Part shown: piece after piece, positions 5,410 through 18,646 of the stretch | Layout: the number at the start of each line of letters is the position of its first letter | Position numbering within the stretch: position 1 is the stretch's first letter | IMG/VR virus record: IMGVR_UViG_3300025736_000218 | Coordinates: 1 to 22,787 of that record | DNA: 22,787 nucleotides | Direction: 5' to 3' (one strand) | From: a virus | Notes under the pieces: generated by a model | What the model saw: the letters and a program-made list of their open reading frames with translations, nothing else | Databases searched by the model: none | Told to the model about the DNA's origin: nothing | Position numbers and translations under genes: made by a program

Positions 5410-6228
5410 GTGTTATATAATGAAATGGAAAAGGTGGCTAATGCATCTATGGGAATTAAAAAGTTTAGTGATGAGGTAAAAGAAGATTTATGGAAAATTT
5501 ACTTTTGGAATAAGCCTGCTAGTATTGAGGAGTTCTTAACTGAAGAATACTTAGGTACTTTATTGGTAAGTTTATACCCTGAGGTTAAGCAAGATATTAT
5601 TGCTTTTTATAAGTCAGGTGAAAGCACATGGTTAAATAATAATGGATTAGGTACAGGAAAAACATTAAGTAGTATAGTGTGTGCTTTGTATAATATTTAT
5701 TTATATTTAAATACTAGAGAACATACAGCTGGAGGAAGTCTATCTTCAGTGGTAGCTTTATATTCTGAGCCTAAAATAAATGATATTACTGCATTTAATC
5801 TAAACATATCCCCTTTTCTAAATATTATGGGTAAGGGTGGTATTTTTAAGCAAGTTAAAAGTATTAGAGTTTTGAGAAAAAAACAAAATAGAGCAAGAGT
5901 TGAAGGTAGATGTGTACTCTATTATACTGTAGAAAACAAGGAATTAGAATTTGCTAACAATCTTAAAGTATCTACTTTTTCGGATAAAGCTAGTATGATG
6001 AGTACAAATATAATAACAGCTATAGCTTTGACTCAGTATAATAGTGAATACTCTTTTAAAAGTAAAGATTGGTTTAATGATGCTAGTTTAAGGGTATTTA
6101 GCAGACATGGAACTGCAAATTATGCTAAAGGTATTGTCGATAGTGTAATTAAAAATAACTCTAACACATTCATAATTAAAGAGAACTCTAATGTATTTGT
6201 AACTAATAGAGAAAAGAAATTAAAATAA
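5410..6228 (+). CDS. Truncated TerL ATPase-domain paralogue
   Basis: The start is GTG 5410, 6 bases after AAGGAG (5398-5403). The 272-residue protein is visibly homologous to the N-terminal half of TerL. IEEFLTEEYLGTLLVSLYPEV matches the TerL segment ISDFLTSTWLGSVSDNIYPHV; GLGTGKT (residues 79-85) matches the TerL Walker A; and SSVVALYSEPKINDIT and LRVFSRHGTANYAKGIVDS match SSIVAVLGSFTQDKAT and SRIYSRFDNNYWARSIIDS. It ends after the ATPase core and has no nuclease domain. The Walker B region reads VSTFSDKA and motif III (DSSP in TerL) reads DSVI, so hydrolysis and coupling may be impaired although nucleotide binding could survive. It has its own promoter. Possible roles are a packaging regulator, a subunit poisoning or modulating the motor, or a duplicate in decay. 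Confidence 0.8.
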   Translation: MLYNEMEKVANASMGIKKFSDEVKEDLWKIYFWNKPASIEEFLTEEYLGTLLVSLYPEVKQDIIAFYKSGESTWLNNNGLGTGKTLSSIVCALYNIYLYLNTREHTAGGSLSSVVALYSEPKINDITAFNLNISPFLNIMGKGGIFKQVKSIRVLRKKQNRARVEGRCVLYYTVENKELEFANNLKVSTFSDKASMMSTNIITAIALTQYNSEYSFKSKDWFNDASLRVFSRHGTANYAKGIVDSVIKNNSNTFIIKENSNVFVTNREKKLK

Positions 6229-7320: not shown

Positions 7321-8049
7321 ATGAGTAATTTTATACCTTGTAATAAAGGTGATTGTAATAATGGTTATATCAAAACATATGATGATGGGATAGATTCTAT
7401 AACTCCTTGCATTTGCCGTTTAACGCACCACCACGAACTAGAATTAGAAAGCAAGTACATTGTAGCAAACATACCTAAGAAGTCGTGGTCGTACAGTATA
7501 AGTGACTATGTGGGTTTAGATGCTCAAGGTAACATACCTAAGCTAAAAAAGTTTGTAAATGAGTTTGATGAGAAGTTTAAAAACAAGCACTTATATTTAA
7601 AGGGTTTATATGGAACACAGAAATCTAGTTTAGCTAGGTGGCTTGTTAAGGAATTATTGAGAAGAGGTAAGACGGCTCATTATAATTTGCTTGATGACAT
7701 TATCAAGCAACTAGTTAAGTTGAGAGATGAGGATAAGGACATTGATGAATTAGAAGTACTTAATTGTGATTTCTTAGTTATAGATGAAGCCGATGCGGAG
7801 AAGTGTACTATTTATCAATCAGGATATCAATTAAGTTTTCTAACTACTTTTTTAAAGAAACGTTTAGAGTTGGTAGGTAAAAGTACTATATTTATTAGTA
7901 ACTCGGATATAGGTTGTGAAGCGTTTTTTAATAAGTTTGGTGGTACTATACAAGATTTAATTAGAAGAGAGCTTGATGATACTTTAATATTTGAAGATAA
8001 TTATGAAGCATTAAGTAAAGATTTTAATTTGGAGAGCTTATGGGATTAA
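7321..8049 (+). CDS. DnaC-like replicative helicase loader (AAA+ ATPase)
   Basis: The start is ATG 7321, 8 bases after AAGGAG (7307-7312); the upstream GTG at 7312 overlaps the ribosome site. The 242-residue protein begins with a Cys-rich stretch (CNKGDCNNGY then CICR, residues 7-36) like the zinc region before the ATPase core in many phage DnaC-type loaders. The AAA+ core has Walker A GLYGTQKSS (G95-S103) and Walker B FLVIDEAD (Asp155, Glu156), then a sensor-like IFISNSD. The Walker A is odd: the Gly before Lys is Gln. The C-terminal part includes IQDLIRRELDD, a likely arginine-finger region. It would load the DnaB-like helicase encoded at 8821-10224. It is the first gene after its own promoter and overlaps the next gene by 10 bases. 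Confidence 0.82.
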   Translation: MSNFIPCNKGDCNNGYIKTYDDGIDSITPCICRLTHHHELELESKYIVANIPKKSWSYSISDYVGLDAQGNIPKLKKFVNEFDEKFKNKHLYLKGLYGTQKSSLARWLVKELLRRGKTAHYNLLDDIIKQLVKLRDEDKDIDELEVLNCDFLVIDEADAEKCTIYQSGYQLSFLTTFLKKRLELVGKSTIFISNSDIGCEAFFNKFGGTIQDLIRRELDDTLIFEDNYEALSKDFNLESLWD

Positions 8050-8820: not shown

Positions 8821-10224
8821 ATGGGAACAAAAGCAATCACTACTACAGAAAAGCAAATACTAGCTATTTGTTTGAAAGATAAAAGTCACATAATTAAATT
8901 AGATGCAAACCACTTCTTATCCGAGATAGGACAGTTACTATACAAAGCATTTACTACAATGGAAAGCAAGGATAAAGAGCTAGAATATTCTAACACTAAT
9001 ATTGTTATATTTGCAAACAACGATGTAATAGATATACCTACGCTGGAAATGCTTAGAGGATTAGAAACTAATGTAGATTCATTTGACATCTACCTCGATG
9101 AACTTAGAAAAATGAAAGCCTTAGATAATATACGTGTATTAAATGAGAAATTATTCCGTATAGGTGAGGGTAAAAATAGCTTAAGTTTAAAAGAAACTAA
9201 ATTACTTAGAGATGAATTAGATAAAAATATTAGGGTGATAGAGGGTGATACTAAAAAGATTTATACAATGCCTGAGATGTATGAGAAGTATCAAGATATA
9301 ATAGAGGAAAGACTAGATGGTACAGAGTCAATATCCACAGGAGATCCCTATTTAGATCAGAATTTGACGTTTAAGTTCCAAATGCAAAATATTACAATTG
9401 TAGGTGGTCAAAGTGGTTCTGGTAAATCGGCTTATGCTCTACATCTATTTGAGAAAATGGCTAATAAAAGTATACCTGTTTTATATATGAACTTAGAGCT
9501 TAACTTAGAAACACAAGCTACTAGAATATTACAAATGAGACAAAAGCTAAGTAGTGATGTTTTAAATTTCACCTCAGATAATTTTGATAATGAGCATATA
9601 GCGGATAGAATAGAAAATGAAAAATTAAGAATGAGTAAAAATAAAAGAGCTATGTTAAGCTTTGAAGAGTCTATTGATTTATATGAGTTAGAGGATATAA
9701 TAGAGAATACCAAAAAAAAGATGGGTGTTGATCACTTAGTAATAATTATAGATTTATTACCCTTGCTTGGAAGTTGGCAAACTAGCCCTTTAGGTCAAAT
9801 AGAATGTATTGATGAGCTACATAGGATAGTAAGACGAACTAATAGTCATGTAGTAGGTTTGGTACAATTAAATAGAAGTGCTGAAGCTAATAGTAATATA
9901 GCAGAACCTAGTGATATTGATAAATTCTTACGTCCAAAGATTTCTAGTATTTTTTCGGGGAGTGCTTTTGAGCAAAGAGCTAGAACTATCCTATTACTTT
10001 ATAGGAAGAAGCATTTTATGACTAGGTATTTTCCTGATGATGATATGACAAAAACAATGGATGATATAGCGGAGATAAGTATAGCAAAACAGACTCAAGG
10101 GCCATTAGCTAGATTATATTATTTATTTGATACTGAAACATTTAATTGGTACAAATATGATAAAGATAAAATGCTATTAAAAAAAGCAGAATTGATTAAA
10201 CAGCAAAATAAACTTATAGAATAA
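8821..10224 (+). CDS. DnaB-like replicative DNA helicase
   Basis: This 467-residue protein starts at ATG 8821 behind a modest AAAGG site. The N-terminal 110 residues are helical and resemble the DnaB N-terminal collar. After a linker helix comes the RecA-like motor, introduced by STGDPYLDQNLTFKFQMQNI. It has Walker A GGQSGSGKS (about residues 195-203), the conserved YMNLELNLE, Walker B HLVIIIDLLPLL and the GLVQLNRS motif, with arginines near the end (RARTILLLYRK). Family members form hexamers around the lagging-strand template and unwind the fork 5' to 3'. No primase domain is attached and no primase gene is in the window. The DnaC-like protein at 7321-8049 is the likely loader. It forms its own unit between two promoters. 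Confidence 0.9.
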   Translation: MGTKAITTTEKQILAICLKDKSHIIKLDANHFLSEIGQLLYKAFTTMESKDKELEYSNTNIVIFANNDVIDIPTLEMLRGLETNVDSFDIYLDELRKMKALDNIRVLNEKLFRIGEGKNSLSLKETKLLRDELDKNIRVIEGDTKKIYTMPEMYEKYQDIIEERLDGTESISTGDPYLDQNLTFKFQMQNITIVGGQSGSGKSAYALHLFEKMANKSIPVLYMNLELNLETQATRILQMRQKLSSDVLNFTSDNFDNEHIADRIENEKLRMSKNKRAMLSFEESIDLYELEDIIENTKKKMGVDHLVIIIDLLPLLGSWQTSPLGQIECIDELHRIVRRTNSHVVGLVQLNRSAEANSNIAEPSDIDKFLRPKISSIFSGSAFEQRARTILLLYRKKHFMTRYFPDDDMTKTMDDIAEISIAKQTQGPLARLYYLFDTETFNWYKYDKDKMLLKKAELIKQQNKLIE

Positions 10225-10234
10225 ATAATTTAAC

Positions 10235-10263
10235 TTGACAACTTATTATTAAAAGCCTATACT
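10235..10263 (+). promoter_or_regulatory. Sigma-70 type promoter for the GroES-like gene
   Basis: TTGACA at 10235-10240, a 17-base spacer and TATACT at 10258-10263, a close match to consensus. The expected leader to ATG 10294 is about 24 bases and contains AAGGAG at 10282-10287. Confidence 0.87.
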
Positions 10264-10293
10264 TAATTAGGTTTAACTAAAAAGGAGTGAATT

Positions 10294-10680
10294 ATGATAG
10301 ATTTTCCACTTAAGCAATCTATAGCTTTACTAGTTGTAGCTATTCTTATAATGCTTACGGTTGGTAGCTGTATTAGAGATCTAATTAATAAAGAAAATAA
10401 AATAAAGGAGGACTCATTTATGGGTAAAAGAGTTACTAAAGAGATGATGCTAATTGATGTCGTTGAGGAGCAAAAGACATCTGAAACAGGTTTGATTTTG
10501 GATGCAGGAAATGGTGAAACAACGGAGGGTAAAATCGTTGCTATCGGTGCTTTAGTTAAAGAGGTTAAGGTCGGGGACACTGTAGTGTGGATGACTAGAG
10601 CTACTAAACATTGGACTACGGATGGTGATAAGAATCTAGCGGTTGTGCATGCTGATAATGTTTTGACAATCAATGACTAG
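10294..10680 (+). CDS. GroES-like co-chaperonin with membrane anchor and internal second start
   Basis: Two in-frame starts are well served. ATG 10294 has AAGGAG (10282-10287) at 6 bases, and ATG 10420 has AAGGAGG (10405-10411) at 8 bases. The long form (128 residues) begins with a hydrophobic segment, residues 10-25, ending in GSC, which could be a membrane anchor or lipobox-like site, then a charged linker. The short form (86 residues) is the Cpn10-like part: KTSETGLILDAGNGETTEGK, then IVAIG, EVKVGDTVVW and a final VVHADNVLTI. This matches the GroES order (SAGGIVL, GEVLAVG, VKVGDIVIF and a C-terminal strand). GroES caps GroEL during folding; phages such as T4 (gp31) encode versions for capsid folding. 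An anchored form has no counterpart I know of. The gene is flanked by its own promoter and a hairpin terminator. Confidence 0.75.
   Translation: MIDFPLKQSIALLVVAILIMLTVGSCIRDLINKENKIKEDSFMGKRVTKEMMLIDVVEEQKTSETGLILDAGNGETTEGKIVAIGALVKEVKVGDTVVWMTRATKHWTTDGDKNLAVVHADNVLTIND
10405..10411 (+). promoter_or_regulatory. Internal ribosome site for the short GroES-like form
   Basis: AAGGAGG, one of the strongest Shine-Dalgarno sequences in the window, lies in frame inside the coding sequence, 8 bases before ATG 10420. The position marks the boundary between the hydrophobic leader and the Cpn10-like domain, so it probably decides a second start rather than arising by chance from Lys-Glu codons. Confidence 0.7.
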
Positions 10681-10700
10681 GTTTATTTAAGTTAAGTAAT

Positions 10701-10729
10701 AGGGTGGTATAATAGCCACCTTAATTTTT
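10701..10729 (+). terminator. Hairpin with T-rich tail after the GroES-like gene
   Basis: AGGGTGGT at 10701-10708 pairs with GCCACCTT at 10715-10722 (two G-T wobbles) around the loop ATAATA, followed by AATTTTT. This fits a factor-independent terminator for the unit ending at 10680. The same bases contain TGGTATAAT (see the separate entry). Confidence 0.68.
10705..10713 (+). promoter_or_regulatory. Extended -10 element before the FEN nuclease gene
   Basis: TGGTATAAT is a perfect extended -10 (TG, one base, TATAAT), 32 bases before ATG 10746. No TTGACA lies 17 bases upstream (ATTTAA at 10685-10690). It overlaps the terminator hairpin, so stopping the upstream unit and starting the next may share the same bases. 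Confidence 0.45.
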
Positions 10730-10745: not shown

Positions 10746-11744
10746 ATGAATTTTACTAAAATATTAATTGATATGTCTAACATTTACCACCGTAATTATA
10801 ATGTATATAAAGATATGACTCACAAGGTTTATGGTAAAGAGATTATGGTGGGTGGTATTTATGGTACTTTAAAATCTATTGAAGCTATTGAGAGGAATTA
10901 TAAAGGTACTAATGCTATACTTTATTATTTATATGATAACAATACATCTAAAGATAAGCTTAGAGACCAAATGGATACACACTATATGGAGCGTAAATAT
11001 ATAGATCCTGAGTATAAGTTGAATAGGTCGCTTCGTGAACCTGCTTTTTATAAGGGATTAGATTTACTTAAGTTAATGCTAGAATGTAGACAAGATAATT
11101 GTGTTAGTATACGTGTTACAGGATATGAAGCTGATGACTTAGTAAAGCCTGTATTAGAAGAAGTGAATTCAATTGATCCTCATGGACGTAAACTAATTGT
11201 GAGTGAGGATATGGATTGGGCTAGGGTTATAAATAATAATACTTTTTGGTTAGCTAAGAAAAGGATATGGACACCTAAAGATTTTGAAGATCATTATGGA
11301 TTTAAAGTTGAAGGTAAAAGTGTTGCTTTATATAAATCTATTCGTGGTGATAGCTCTGATAATATCCCTGCCGGTATACCTAGAATTCGTGAGGATAAAG
11401 TATTAAGGATTGTAAATGAATTCAAAGATGTTTATGACTTTCTTGCTAATTACCAAAACCTTGGCTACTTAACTGATAAATGGAAAAAAATAATTAATGA
11501 ACAGGCAAGTAGATTGAGATTAAACCATCAGTTGGTAGACTTTATAGATGTATCTAAGGAAAATATTGACAATGGTACGAATGTATGTTATAGTCATACT
11601 ACTAAGTATAAACAATTATTAAATGTACTTGGTTTTGATTTAAATGAATTTATGGGTGAGGGTTACACTAATCTAATTAAAAAAGATAATGGTGTTATTG
11701 ATCCATTAGACCCATTTTCTCAGCCTACATTAGAGAGATATTAA
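10746..11744 (+). CDS. FEN-family 5'-3' exonuclease
   Basis: ATG 10746 follows TAAGGGAG with a short spacer. The 332-residue protein has the acidic residues of the flap-endonuclease family: ILIDMSN (Asp9), GYEADD (126-131 with Glu128, Asp130, Asp131), VSEDMDW (Asp155, Asp157) and IRGDSSDNIP (Asp202, Asp205), the last beginning the helix-hairpin-helix DNA-binding region. A disordered-to-helical arch region (KYIDPEYKLNRSL) precedes the GYEADD motif. T4 RNase H, T5 D15 and the PolI 5' nuclease domain belong here; they remove RNA primers and flaps on the lagging strand. It is a stand-alone nuclease with no polymerase attached. It leads the unit that continues with the SNF2 helicase. Confidence 0.88.
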   Translation: MNFTKILIDMSNIYHRNYNVYKDMTHKVYGKEIMVGGIYGTLKSIEAIERNYKGTNAILYYLYDNNTSKDKLRDQMDTHYMERKYIDPEYKLNRSLREPAFYKGLDLLKLMLECRQDNCVSIRVTGYEADDLVKPVLEEVNSIDPHGRKLIVSEDMDWARVINNNTFWLAKKRIWTPKDFEDHYGFKVEGKSVALYKSIRGDSSDNIPAGIPRIREDKVLRIVNEFKDVYDFLANYQNLGYLTDKWKKIINEQASRLRLNHQLVDFIDVSKENIDNGTNVCYSHTTKYKQLLNVLGFDLNEFMGEGYTNLIKKDNGVIDPLDPFSQPTLERY

Positions 11745-11761: not shown

Positions 11762-13597
11762 ATGGTAACAATCAAGCAACTAAATAATGATAGCTACTCA
11801 GTAAAGTTTTATACTGATGATAATTTTGATGATATTCTCAATCTATGTAAAGAGAGTGGTATGAAATATGATCCTGATAATAAACAATGGATTGCGGATA
11901 AGTTTACTATTTATAATTACTTAAGTGAATTTGAGGAAATGGAAGAGGTTAAATTACCTACTACTAGAGAGCAGTTGCTAAAGGATTGTAAGCCTATCCC
12001 ACGTATTAAAAAAGTGAGGTTTAAAGTAGATGAAAGCTTATTTGTATATCCTCCAATGAAAGGGAAACCTCCTTATGAGAATTATCAATATGAGGGAATT
12101 AGAGATAGTATACAATCTAATGGTAGATATTTTATGTGGGACATGGGGCTAGGTAAAACCTTTTTAATTGTAAATACTATAAACCAACTAATGAATAAAA
12201 GTAAAGTAGGTGCTGTATTAATTATATGTGTTCCTGAAGTATTATATACCTGGAGACATGAATTATTAAAGTTTGGTAGTGTAGGTATTACGGAGGATGA
12301 TATTTATATAGCTGATAAAGATAATAGAAAGCCCTTTGAATCTGATAAAAAAATAGTTATAATGACCTATCGTACATTAATTACTATTTCAGATACTTAT
12401 AAAAAGCAGGATATTAAACTAACTAAAAAGAAATATTCTAGTAATTATAGATCTGTGGATATAAGACTAAATGAATGGTATAATAATGTAAATAAGATGC
12501 TAGTATTAGATGAATCACATAAAGTTAAATCTACTAAAACTAAGACATATAAACTACTTAAGATGCAATTAGATTATTTCACACATAGATACTTATTAAC
12601 AGGCACTCCAGCCCCTCAAGGTGTGGGGGATTATTATTCTCAATTACAAATATTAGATGAAACTATTATACCTGTGAGCTATCAACAATGGATTAAAACA
12701 GTTGCTAATATAGGGAATCGTTTTAGTAAGTATGCTATAAATTATTATTATGAAGATAAAGTTAAATTATTTCTTAATAGCTTATCACCTTATGTTAGTA
12801 GGTTATTTTCTAAGGATGTACTTGACCTACCTGAATTACTTATAAAAGAAAATTATTGCAATTTAAGCGGTAAACAATTGAGAATTTATCAACTATTAGT
12901 ACAGCAAGAACTAGGTATAATTAAGGAAACAAAAGGTGTATTAGAGTCTAAAGATGTAGTACAAAAGTTTCCTTATATGACTTTAGCTTTACATGAGCCA
13001 TGTATATTAAAAGGGAAGATAGATATAGATAGAAGTCCTGAATTATTTGATCTAGTTAATAAATGGAAATTCAAAGATAATTGTAAAATAGAAGTATTAG
13101 ATGGATTAGTTGATACTTATATAGAGGAAGGACATAGAATTATTATATGGTCTAGTCATCCTAAAACAATAGATGCTTTACAAGAGCATTTAAAAAAACA
13201 CAATCCCTTTGCTATACATGGTCAAACTGATACTCAAGGATTAGATAGAAGTTTATTTAAAGCTAAATTAGTTGATGAATTTAAAAAAGATGAAAGTAGT
13301 AGAATACTTATTGCCTCATCTCTATCACTAAGTACTGGAATAACTTTGAATGAATGTGACCGTGTTATTTATTTTGACCGTAACTATAGTTTAGAGACTT
13401 ACTTACAATCAATAAAACGTAACCATAGAATAGGGCAAACTAATAATGTAATAACTAATTTATTAATACTTGATAATTCATTAGAGGTTAAGCAGCATGC
13501 TATGTTACAAGATAAAGAAAAATTAAATAATACAGCTTTTGATAATAAAGTCATGAGTAAACAGGATATTTTAAATGTATTTGGGAGTAGTAAATAA
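11762..13597 (+). CDS. SNF2/superfamily 2 DNA helicase-like ATPase
   Basis: ATG 11762 lies 10 bases after AAGGAG. The 611-residue protein has an N-terminal extension (1-110), then the SNF2 motor. Motif I is MGLGKT (128-133), motif II is DESH (250-253) with KSTKT, and motif III is LLTGTPAP. In the second lobe, IIIWSSHPKTI and INECD-like GITLNECDRVIYFD precede motif VI, QSIKRNHRIGQ (549-559). This set is typical of HepA/RapA/HARP-like phage proteins that translocate on double-stranded DNA and remodel protein-DNA complexes or forks. The first 45 residues (VKFYTDDNFDDILNLCKESG, then WIADKFTI) resemble the small N-terminal domain of HARP/SMARCAL1-type proteins, a weak comparison. Role: fork restart, recombination or displacing bound proteins. 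It overlaps the next gene by one base. Confidence 0.9.
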   Translation: MVTIKQLNNDSYSVKFYTDDNFDDILNLCKESGMKYDPDNKQWIADKFTIYNYLSEFEEMEEVKLPTTREQLLKDCKPIPRIKKVRFKVDESLFVYPPMKGKPPYENYQYEGIRDSIQSNGRYFMWDMGLGKTFLIVNTINQLMNKSKVGAVLIICVPEVLYTWRHELLKFGSVGITEDDIYIADKDNRKPFESDKKIVIMTYRTLITISDTYKKQDIKLTKKKYSSNYRSVDIRLNEWYNNVNKMLVLDESHKVKSTKTKTYKLLKMQLDYFTHRYLLTGTPAPQGVGDYYSQLQILDETIIPVSYQQWIKTVANIGNRFSKYAINYYYEDKVKLFLNSLSPYVSRLFSKDVLDLPELLIKENYCNLSGKQLRIYQLLVQQELGIIKETKGVLESKDVVQKFPYMTLALHEPCILKGKIDIDRSPELFDLVNKWKFKDNCKIEVLDGLVDTYIEEGHRIIIWSSHPKTIDALQEHLKKHNPFAIHGQTDTQGLDRSLFKAKLVDEFKKDESSRILIASSLSLSTGITLNECDRVIYFDRNYSLETYLQSIKRNHRIGQTNNVITNLLILDNSLEVKQHAMLQDKEKLNNTAFDNKVMSKQDILNVFGSSK

Positions 13598-14731: not shown

Positions 14732-15505
14732 ATGTGTAAAAGTTTTAAATTAAAAATAGTAGTGATGGGTTTAATAGCCTGTCACTTTTCAATGTATGGT
14801 AAGATAACCTGGCTAAATAACAGATATAAAAATATAATTGAGCCTAACTCCGAGTATTCATTTAGTGAATATAAAAAGGAATTAAATTTTTGGATGGATA
14901 GATTACCTAATAGTTTGTACCGTCATGTGATAATTGATAATGCTATTGTAGAGGATGTTCCTATTGAGTATATCTATTCTATAGCACACACTGAGACAGG
15001 TAATTTTAGATTCATGAGATCAATAGTGCCTAATAAAAATGGTACAATAGATCATGGTATTATGGCTGTAAATAGTGCTAATTTAAAGAAGGATAGATTT
15101 ATGGATACTTATTTCTATGATTCATTCTATACACGGTTTAATATTAACAATCAGTATCACATAGGTAAGATTGGAGTTAAGTATTTTAAGGATTTATTAA
15201 ATAAAACTAAGTGTGTGGATGGTGCGATTAAGTCTTATAATTGTGGTTATCATGCTTGGTCACAGGGTAGAGTACCTGAGTCCACTATAGGTTATGAATT
15301 AAAAATAAGTAACTTAATTAAAGTAGTACAAAAGGAACGATTTACATATATATTTGATGATATTATTAATATGTGTAAAATTCATATTGACAATCAATTA
15401 CATTTAGTGCATAAAGTAGGTAGAGTAAAAGTTAATTATACTAAAGTCTTACACGGTAGGAGGTATTTAATTTATATGGATGGTATAATTTACTTAGTAG
15501 CATAA
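14732..15505 (+). CDS. Lytic transglycosylase (SLT-like) with N-terminal membrane segment
   Basis: ATG 14732 has AAGGA about 9 bases upstream. The 257-residue protein opens with lysines and a hydrophobic segment (residues 7-22, LKIVVMGLIACHFSMYG), a signal or membrane anchor. The core carries the soluble lytic transglycosylase signature: YSIAHTETGNF with catalytic Glu88, then DHGIMAVNSAN in place of the usual SxGLMQIxP, and AIKSYNCGYHAWSQG for AxxAYNAGxG. These enzymes cleave the MurNAc-GlcNAc bond of peptidoglycan to the anhydro product. The C-terminal 60 residues (from about 195) are not part of the fold. In phages such an enzyme may open the wall during DNA entry or help lysis. It sits in a plus-strand, early-type unit, not with the M23 peptidase. 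Confidence 0.75.
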   Translation: MCKSFKLKIVVMGLIACHFSMYGKITWLNNRYKNIIEPNSEYSFSEYKKELNFWMDRLPNSLYRHVIIDNAIVEDVPIEYIYSIAHTETGNFRFMRSIVPNKNGTIDHGIMAVNSANLKKDRFMDTYFYDSFYTRFNINNQYHIGKIGVKYFKDLLNKTKCVDGAIKSYNCGYHAWSQGRVPESTIGYELKISNLIKVVQKERFTYIFDDIINMCKIHIDNQLHLVHKVGRVKVNYTKVLHGRRYLIYMDGIIYLVA

Positions 15506-17733: not shown

Positions 17734-18180
17734 ATGAAAACAACAATTAAAAGTATTTTAGAAGCAAGCCCCGAGAAGTATATCTGTGGAGCAATGGATA
17801 GAAATGAGGACATATATTTATATATGGTTAAACCTCTAATTGATGATAGAAGGTGGGAAATACAAGAAGGATGCTTAAGGGTAGATGGTAGACTTATTGA
17901 AGAATTACCTACCAACTGGAGAGAATCTTTAGTGTTTAGAGAGGGTTATGAGCCTAAAATAGAGTTTCCCTTTAAAACATGGGATAGGGTTTTAATTAGA
18001 GATCAAGAAGATGAGTTATGGATAGCAGCGGAGTTCAGTCATATAGATAGTGATGGTAACTTATACTTAGTAGGTGGTGAATATTACGATTATAACATAG
18101 CTTATAAAGGTAACGAGGATTTAGTAGGTACAACTAAAGAAAGTAATACTAAAGTATGGACTAAAAAAGATTTTGAGTAG
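17734..18180 (+). CDS. Conserved phage hypothetical protein
   Basis: ATG 17734 lies behind AAGGAG. The 148-residue product contains FPFKTWDRVLIRDQEDELWI, AAEFSHIDSDG and a C-terminal GNEDLVGTTKES, a pattern I recognise from small hypotheticals in many phages (a beta-rich domain with regularly spaced Trp and Asp and a terminal GNExLxGT). The first 50 residues form a less conserved part (ASPEKYICGAMDRNEDIYLY). There are no membrane or metal-binding features. Function is unknown in every case I know of. It lies between the second methyltransferase and the macro-domain gene in one unit. Confidence 0.75.
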   Translation: MKTTIKSILEASPEKYICGAMDRNEDIYLYMVKPLIDDRRWEIQEGCLRVDGRLIEELPTNWRESLVFREGYEPKIEFPFKTWDRVLIRDQEDELWIAAEFSHIDSDGNLYLVGGEYYDYNIAYKGNEDLVGTTKESNTKVWTKKDFE

Positions 18181-18190
18181 GGAGTATATT

Positions 18191-18646
18191 ATGAAAGTAG
18201 TAAAAGGTAATTTAATAACTTTAGCCAAGCAAGGTGAGTTTGATGTAATAATACATGGATGTAATTGTTTTAATACAATGGGAGCAGGTATTGCTAAACA
18301 GATAAAAAATGAGTTCCCTGAAGCCTATGAAGTAGATCAGAAAACTAAAAAAGGTGATGTGGCTAAGATGGGTTCATTTACTCATGCTTCTATCCTGTTA
18401 GATGATACTACGGAATTAGCAGTAGTTAATGCTTATACTCAATTTGATTTTGGAGGAGGTCAAGTGAATGCTAGTTATGAATCTATAAGAGAAGTCTTTA
18501 AGTTTATATCAAGTTACTTCACTAATAAAAGAATAGGTTATCCAAAAATAGGTGCTGGATTAGCTCATGGAGATTGGAATATAATAAGCAAGATTATAGA
18601 TGAGGAATTAGAGGGATTAGATCACACATTAGTAGTTCTCTCATGA
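18191..18646 (+). CDS. Macro-domain protein (ADP-ribose binding/hydrolysing)
   Basis: The start is ATG 18191, 6 bases after GGGAG, rather than an upstream ATG inside the preceding gene. The 151-residue protein is a single macro domain: VVKGNLI at the start, DVIIHGCNCFNTMGAGIAKQ near residues 19-38 (the ADP-ribose-binding loop with its Gly-Ala-Gly), VVNAYTQFDFGG, and YPKIGAGLAHGDW for the phosphate-binding loop. This arrangement matches the ADP-ribose-1''-phosphate phosphatase/ALC1-like group. Members hydrolyse ADP-ribose-1''-phosphate or remove ADP-ribose from macromolecules. In a phage it could recycle NAD products or counter defences that use ADP-ribosylation or NAD-derived signals; that role is inferred. 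Confidence 0.88.
   Translation: MKVVKGNLITLAKQGEFDVIIHGCNCFNTMGAGIAKQIKNEFPEAYEVDQKTKKGDVAKMGSFTHASILLDDTTELAVVNAYTQFDFGGGQVNASYESIREVFKFISSYFTNKRIGYPKIGAGLAHGDWNIISKIIDEELEGLDHTLVVLS

Follow-up and report, generated by a model that had tools for sequence, protein, structure and literature searches.

In a virus fragment of 22,787 bases (record IMGVR_UViG_3300025736_000218, a single contig with a G+C content of 30%, hereafter the window), we found a groES-like gene on the plus strand that can be read from two in-frame starts. The full open reading frame (ORF; 10294-10680) encodes a long form of 128 amino acids composed of a hydrophobic leader, a linker, and a Cpn10 domain, and the inner start gives a short, Cpn10/GroES-like form of 86 amino acids (10420-10680). 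As a feature of the sequence, the dual start is well supported. We tentatively favor the interpretation that this gene, equipped with its own promoter and terminator, gives rise to both a soluble and a membrane-anchored co-chaperonin, with a plausible but putative function for the membrane-anchored form.

The two ATGs at 10294 and 10420 lie 126 nt apart in the same frame and share the stop codon at 10678-10680. They are preceded by AAAAAGGAGTGAATT and AAATAAAGGAGGACTCATTT, respectively. Measured as pairing energy to the anti-Shine-Dalgarno sequence ACCUCCUUA, the AAGGAG of the first start (approximately 10283-10288) reaches -8.2 kcal/mol and the AAGGAGG located 8 nt 5' of the second ATG (10405-10411) reaches -11.6 kcal/mol. 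The latter is the strongest site found among the 98 internal in-frame ATGs of the window's genes, and a stronger one was present at only two of the 21 gene starts tested. Both sites are of gene-start quality, which bears out the initial annotation of this DNA, where two in-frame ATGs at this distance, each with a good ribosome site, had been pointed out. Another very strong internal ribosome site with an ATG (-11.5 kcal/mol) was observed at 15459-15478, toward the end of the transglycosylase ORF (14732-15505); the in-frame stretch downstream of that ATG is short.

Based on sequence profiles and the structural model, residues 43-128 can be firmly assigned to the Cpn10/GroES family, as a short type without the roof loop. 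This part of the protein matched Pfam PF00166 with an E-value of 5.8e-7 (28.2 and 29.9 bits, above the curated cut-off of 21.1) and PHROG 3188, "co-chaperonin GroES", with an E-value of 2.2e-13. The Cpn10 profile matches begin at residues 46-49 and the homologues start at about residue 43, so that the earlier proposal of a Cpn10-like domain beginning at the second ATG is borne out by both profiles and by the structure search. In the AlphaFold2 model of the full ORF, which is of modest confidence (mean pLDDT of 73), a beta domain follows the leader helix, and a Foldseek search with this model returned solved Cpn10 structures as top PDB matches and GroES proteins as top matches in the viral library (E-values of about 5e-6). 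T4 gp31 (1g31) ranked lower among the structure matches, with 14% identity over the match. A model of the short form alone reached a pLDDT of 66 and was left out of the fold search; structure prediction of both forms had been suggested as a check at the outset, and the full-length model agrees with a Cpn10-like fold. The roof beta-hairpin is absent, as about 9 residues are missing between VAIG and VKVGD, and this loss is common to the nearest phage relatives. Since these relatives and gp31 alike lack the hairpin, the element is not defining for the Cpn10 family. The putative GroEL-binding mobile loop, KTSETG-LIL, aligns to the TTxSGIIL of the relatives but is one residue shorter and has low confidence in the model; its hydrophobic tripeptide would be LIL, compared to IVL in E. 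coli GroES.

The sequence between the two starts consists of a leader and a linker. The leader (MIDFPLKQSIALLVVAILIMLTVGSCIRDLINKENKIKEDSF) has a 19-residue Kyte-Doolittle peak of 2.69, and its hydrophobic part terminates in Gly-Ser-Cys, followed in the same frame by a charged linker, just as initially described. Residues 1-26 (10294-10371; hydrophobic segment MIDFPLKQSIALLVVAILIMLTVGSC) are predicted to form a signal anchor with a weak lipobox fit, and the structural model shows a helix at residues 4-44. The linker (IRDLINKENKIKEDSF; 10372-10419) is encoded by DNA that includes the second ribosome site. While every other gene start checked has an in-frame stop 0-11 codons upstream, ATG 10420 is preceded by 43 open codons, and of 14 such 48-nt stretches preceding gene starts, the linker alone lacks an in-frame stop. 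In composition shuffles, the probability of 42 open codons was 0.018 and that of an equally hydrophobic product, given an open frame, was 0.0008; these values are post hoc, as the stretch had been chosen by eye. An open and hydrophobic leader is unlikely to have arisen by chance. The leader has a codon score of 0.14 in frame compared to -0.84 and -0.60 in the other two frames, which is on the low side of the range of real genes but inside it. We do not use the score of the linker by itself as evidence: the scores of genuine intergenic sequence overlap with it, and codon usage is thus no proof that the linker is translated.

With respect to transcription, a predicted sigma-70-type promoter (TTGACA-17-TATACT, 11 of 12 consensus matches) is located at 10235-10263, 30 nt before ATG 10294. 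It belongs to a set of six strong TTGACA-17 promoters on the plus strand (5332, 7272, 8766, 10235, 14396, and 16892), all of which have a gene start 17-49 nt downstream, which suggests host-sigma-70-type transcription units across the region. On the 3' side of the gene, an intrinsic-terminator-like hairpin with a 9-bp stem followed by ATTTTTAT spans 10700-10723. Both elements are predictions from consensus matches, and groES is best read as a transcription unit of its own that would begin just 5' of the leader. As the promoter precedes ATG 10294 and the terminator follows the gene, both starts should share one mRNA. An imperfect palindrome, AAGCCTATACTTAATTAGGTTT, spans the -10 box of the groES promoter (10250-10275) and is a possible operator.

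According to the ORF list and profile matches, the gene lies within a replication module that comprises a DnaC-like loader (7321-8049), a DnaB-like helicase (8821-10224), a 5'-3' exonuclease (10746-11744), and an SNF2-type helicase (11762-13597). Several further ORFs of the window deserve mention. An open ORF of 667 amino acids on the minus strand (2-2002), which extends past the window edge, contains many near-identical repeats of the NTANGYQSLYSNTTG type and looks like a tail-fibre or adhesin repeat protein; a Pfam search with it gave zero matches. Directly 3' of the terminase gene, a 272-amino-acid ORF (5410-6228) can be matched to terminases of related phages, in their N-terminal half, with 28-29% identity over about 240 amino acids, and resembles a truncated second copy of the ATPase part. 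The product of 18173-18646 has a weak macro-domain match (PF01661, E-value of 0.003, under the cut-off of that family) and is possibly ADP-ribose-related.

In order to place the gene among its relatives, we compared 15 distinct GroES loci, namely those of Bacteroides phage SJC03, Cellulophaga phages phi13:2 and phi18:3 (with the near-identical sisters of the latter counted together with it), Vibrio phage D69, a faecal phage contig, five IMG/VR contigs (L007-L010 and L016), the 155-kb phage G001, and four bacterial metagenome-assembled genomes. All 15 relatives are distant, and each has its start at the position of the second methionine or no more than a few residues away from it; none, including that of the related phage G001, carries the hydrophobic leader. 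The conservation of both starts and of the leader that the initial annotation had proposed to look for was therefore not observed, only the second start being shared. In the viral contigs and phages scanned, we found no close relative by which the conservation of either start could be judged: when the full ORF, DnaB, and the SNF2 helicase were each used as a single-protein query against viral contigs, no relative came up, and a DNA-level phage search gave no match. Alignments of the terminase, the exonuclease, and SNF2 served as profiles for further scans, a pattern-based approach that can miss relatives, and these yielded two usable kin. Compared to the window phage, G001 showed identities of 41-43% for the terminase, 37% for SNF2, and 30% for DnaB, and G010 (a 13-kb fragment) showed 43% for the exonuclease and 47% over the best segment of SNF2. 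The groES gene of G001 is of the soluble type, is distant from the exonuclease gene, and has a Shine-Dalgarno-led start at MNIK. In the vicinity of this gene (L029, 145094-148366), several otherwise different ORFs share an N-terminal motif like MKxRxTFVSNSSSSSF. No groES was found in the G010 fragment, in which a GIY-YIG-like endonuclease ORF, assigned by eye, lies upstream of the exonuclease gene. Taken together, the different location in G001 and the different occupant in G010 make groES look like a passenger in its slot. As far as seen, the leader appears to be private to the window contig. The structure matches also pointed to two viral GroES proteins of greater length, which could not be located.

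Under the reading that we prefer, transcription would start from the promoter just 5' of the leader. Initiation at 10420 would produce an ordinary soluble lid subunit of 86 residues that partners with the GroEL of the host. No GroEL family match was present in the 22.8-kb fragment or in its kin G001 and G010. Initiation at 10294 would extend the lid subunit by one hydrophobic helix and a charged linker, most likely yielding a membrane-anchored minority. According to the positive-inside rule, the basic flank of a membrane helix stays cytoplasmic. The leader helix is followed by four basic residues and preceded by one, which argues for a cytoplasmic Cpn10 domain (N-out/C-in). Given that Cpn10 assembles into heptameric rings, a ring could contain subunits of both forms, and such mixed rings might keep GroEL-lid complexes tethered to the membrane on its inner face. 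Translation from both starts, insertion in this orientation, ring mixing, and tethering are all steps that we infer. In a more specific and rather doubtful extension, mixed rings with a minority of anchored subunits would draw host GroEL, capped by the phage lid, to the membrane, allowing capsid proteins or membrane-associated proteins of the phage to fold where they are assembled. The anchored and soluble forms envisaged in the initial annotation are thus in line with the domain, the leader, the ribosome sites, and the single predicted transcription unit, and they find no parallel for the leader in any of the 15 relatives.

The main rival to the dual-start reading is a fusion relic or a sequence error, which we regard as a realistic though less probable explanation. 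Here, a tiny membrane ORF with its own ribosome site 5' of groES would have lost its stop codon, by a single mutation or by an assembly error, leaving the short form as the working protein and the fused product as incidental. This would account for the start of all relatives near the second methionine and would fit the varying surroundings of groES, which lies elsewhere in G001, while in G010 the endonuclease ORF precedes the exonuclease gene. It would also fit the linker, which resembles a typical AT-rich 5' untranslated stretch bearing a Shine-Dalgarno sequence, and the fact that a single substitution would create a stop in 11 of the 42 leader codons (seven in the linker). However, free-standing ORFs of 15-60 codons with a strong Shine-Dalgarno sequence were not found elsewhere in the window, so that a separate tiny leader gene would be without parallel here. 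A leader existing as a separate gene in relatives had been named beforehand as an argument against the dual start; no convincing leader homologue, separate or otherwise, was found in phages, PHROGs, or the fetched loci. Moreover, both forms would be expected from the sequence as it stands, even if the fusion is recent.

Two further explanations accept the leader as functional in other ways. The leader might be regulatory, in that co-translational membrane targeting or ribosomes crossing the second Shine-Dalgarno sequence tune the yield of the soluble form and the long protein has no role of its own. An upstream in-frame start with a moderate ribosome site near the predicted 5' end of the mRNA, followed by a stronger inner site, is consistent with this idea, but mRNA folding near the starts is ordinary (z = +0.9) and a long hydrophobic run would not be needed, and we consider it improbable. 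Even less credible is a lipoprotein, in which TVGS-C would serve as the lipobox, Cys26 would be lipidated, and the Cpn10 domain would reside outside the cytoplasmic membrane in a role unrelated to GroEL. The PS51257-like pattern does fit, Lys7 and Cys26 falling within its permitted ranges, while the stricter G+LPP pattern fails; in addition, we know of no partner for a Cpn10 domain outside the cytoplasm.

Co-chaperonins are treated as soluble lids, and a membrane-anchored isoform, if true, would provide a simple and testable route to GroEL-dependent folding at the membrane. Some phages begin head assembly at the membrane, and by eliminating either start one could ask genetically whether it matters where folding takes place. 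In the literature searched, which covers the field in part, we found no report of a membrane-bound GroES or an anchored co-chaperonin isoform. The closest named phage proteins are the GroES of Bacteroides phage SJC03/DAC and of Cellulophaga phages phi13:2 and phi18:3 (26-38% local identity), which likewise lack the roof loop and have similar end points but, unlike the window ORF, begin near the position that corresponds to the second methionine and carry no leader. Host co-chaperonins such as E. coli GroES and M. tuberculosis Cpn10 have the same fold; the window protein is about 9 residues shorter at the roof, and its long form adds the N-terminal helix. To our knowledge, T4 gp31 occurs only as a soluble, single-start protein, in contrast to the dual-start gene described here. 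Like the window gene, T4 gp31 and RB49 CocO represent phage-encoded Cpn10 proteins, and these two work with host GroEL, although the sequence of gp31 is not recognizably close to that of the window GroES beyond the low identity over the structural match. In T4, gp31 is required for folding of the major capsid protein (PMC3012670). With regard to the gene arrangement, the nearest analogy is a different one. The S holin gene of phage lambda uses two in-frame starts in one gene, whose products differ in the N-terminal part that governs membrane behavior; it belongs to another protein family, and in the case presented here one of the two forms would be entirely soluble.
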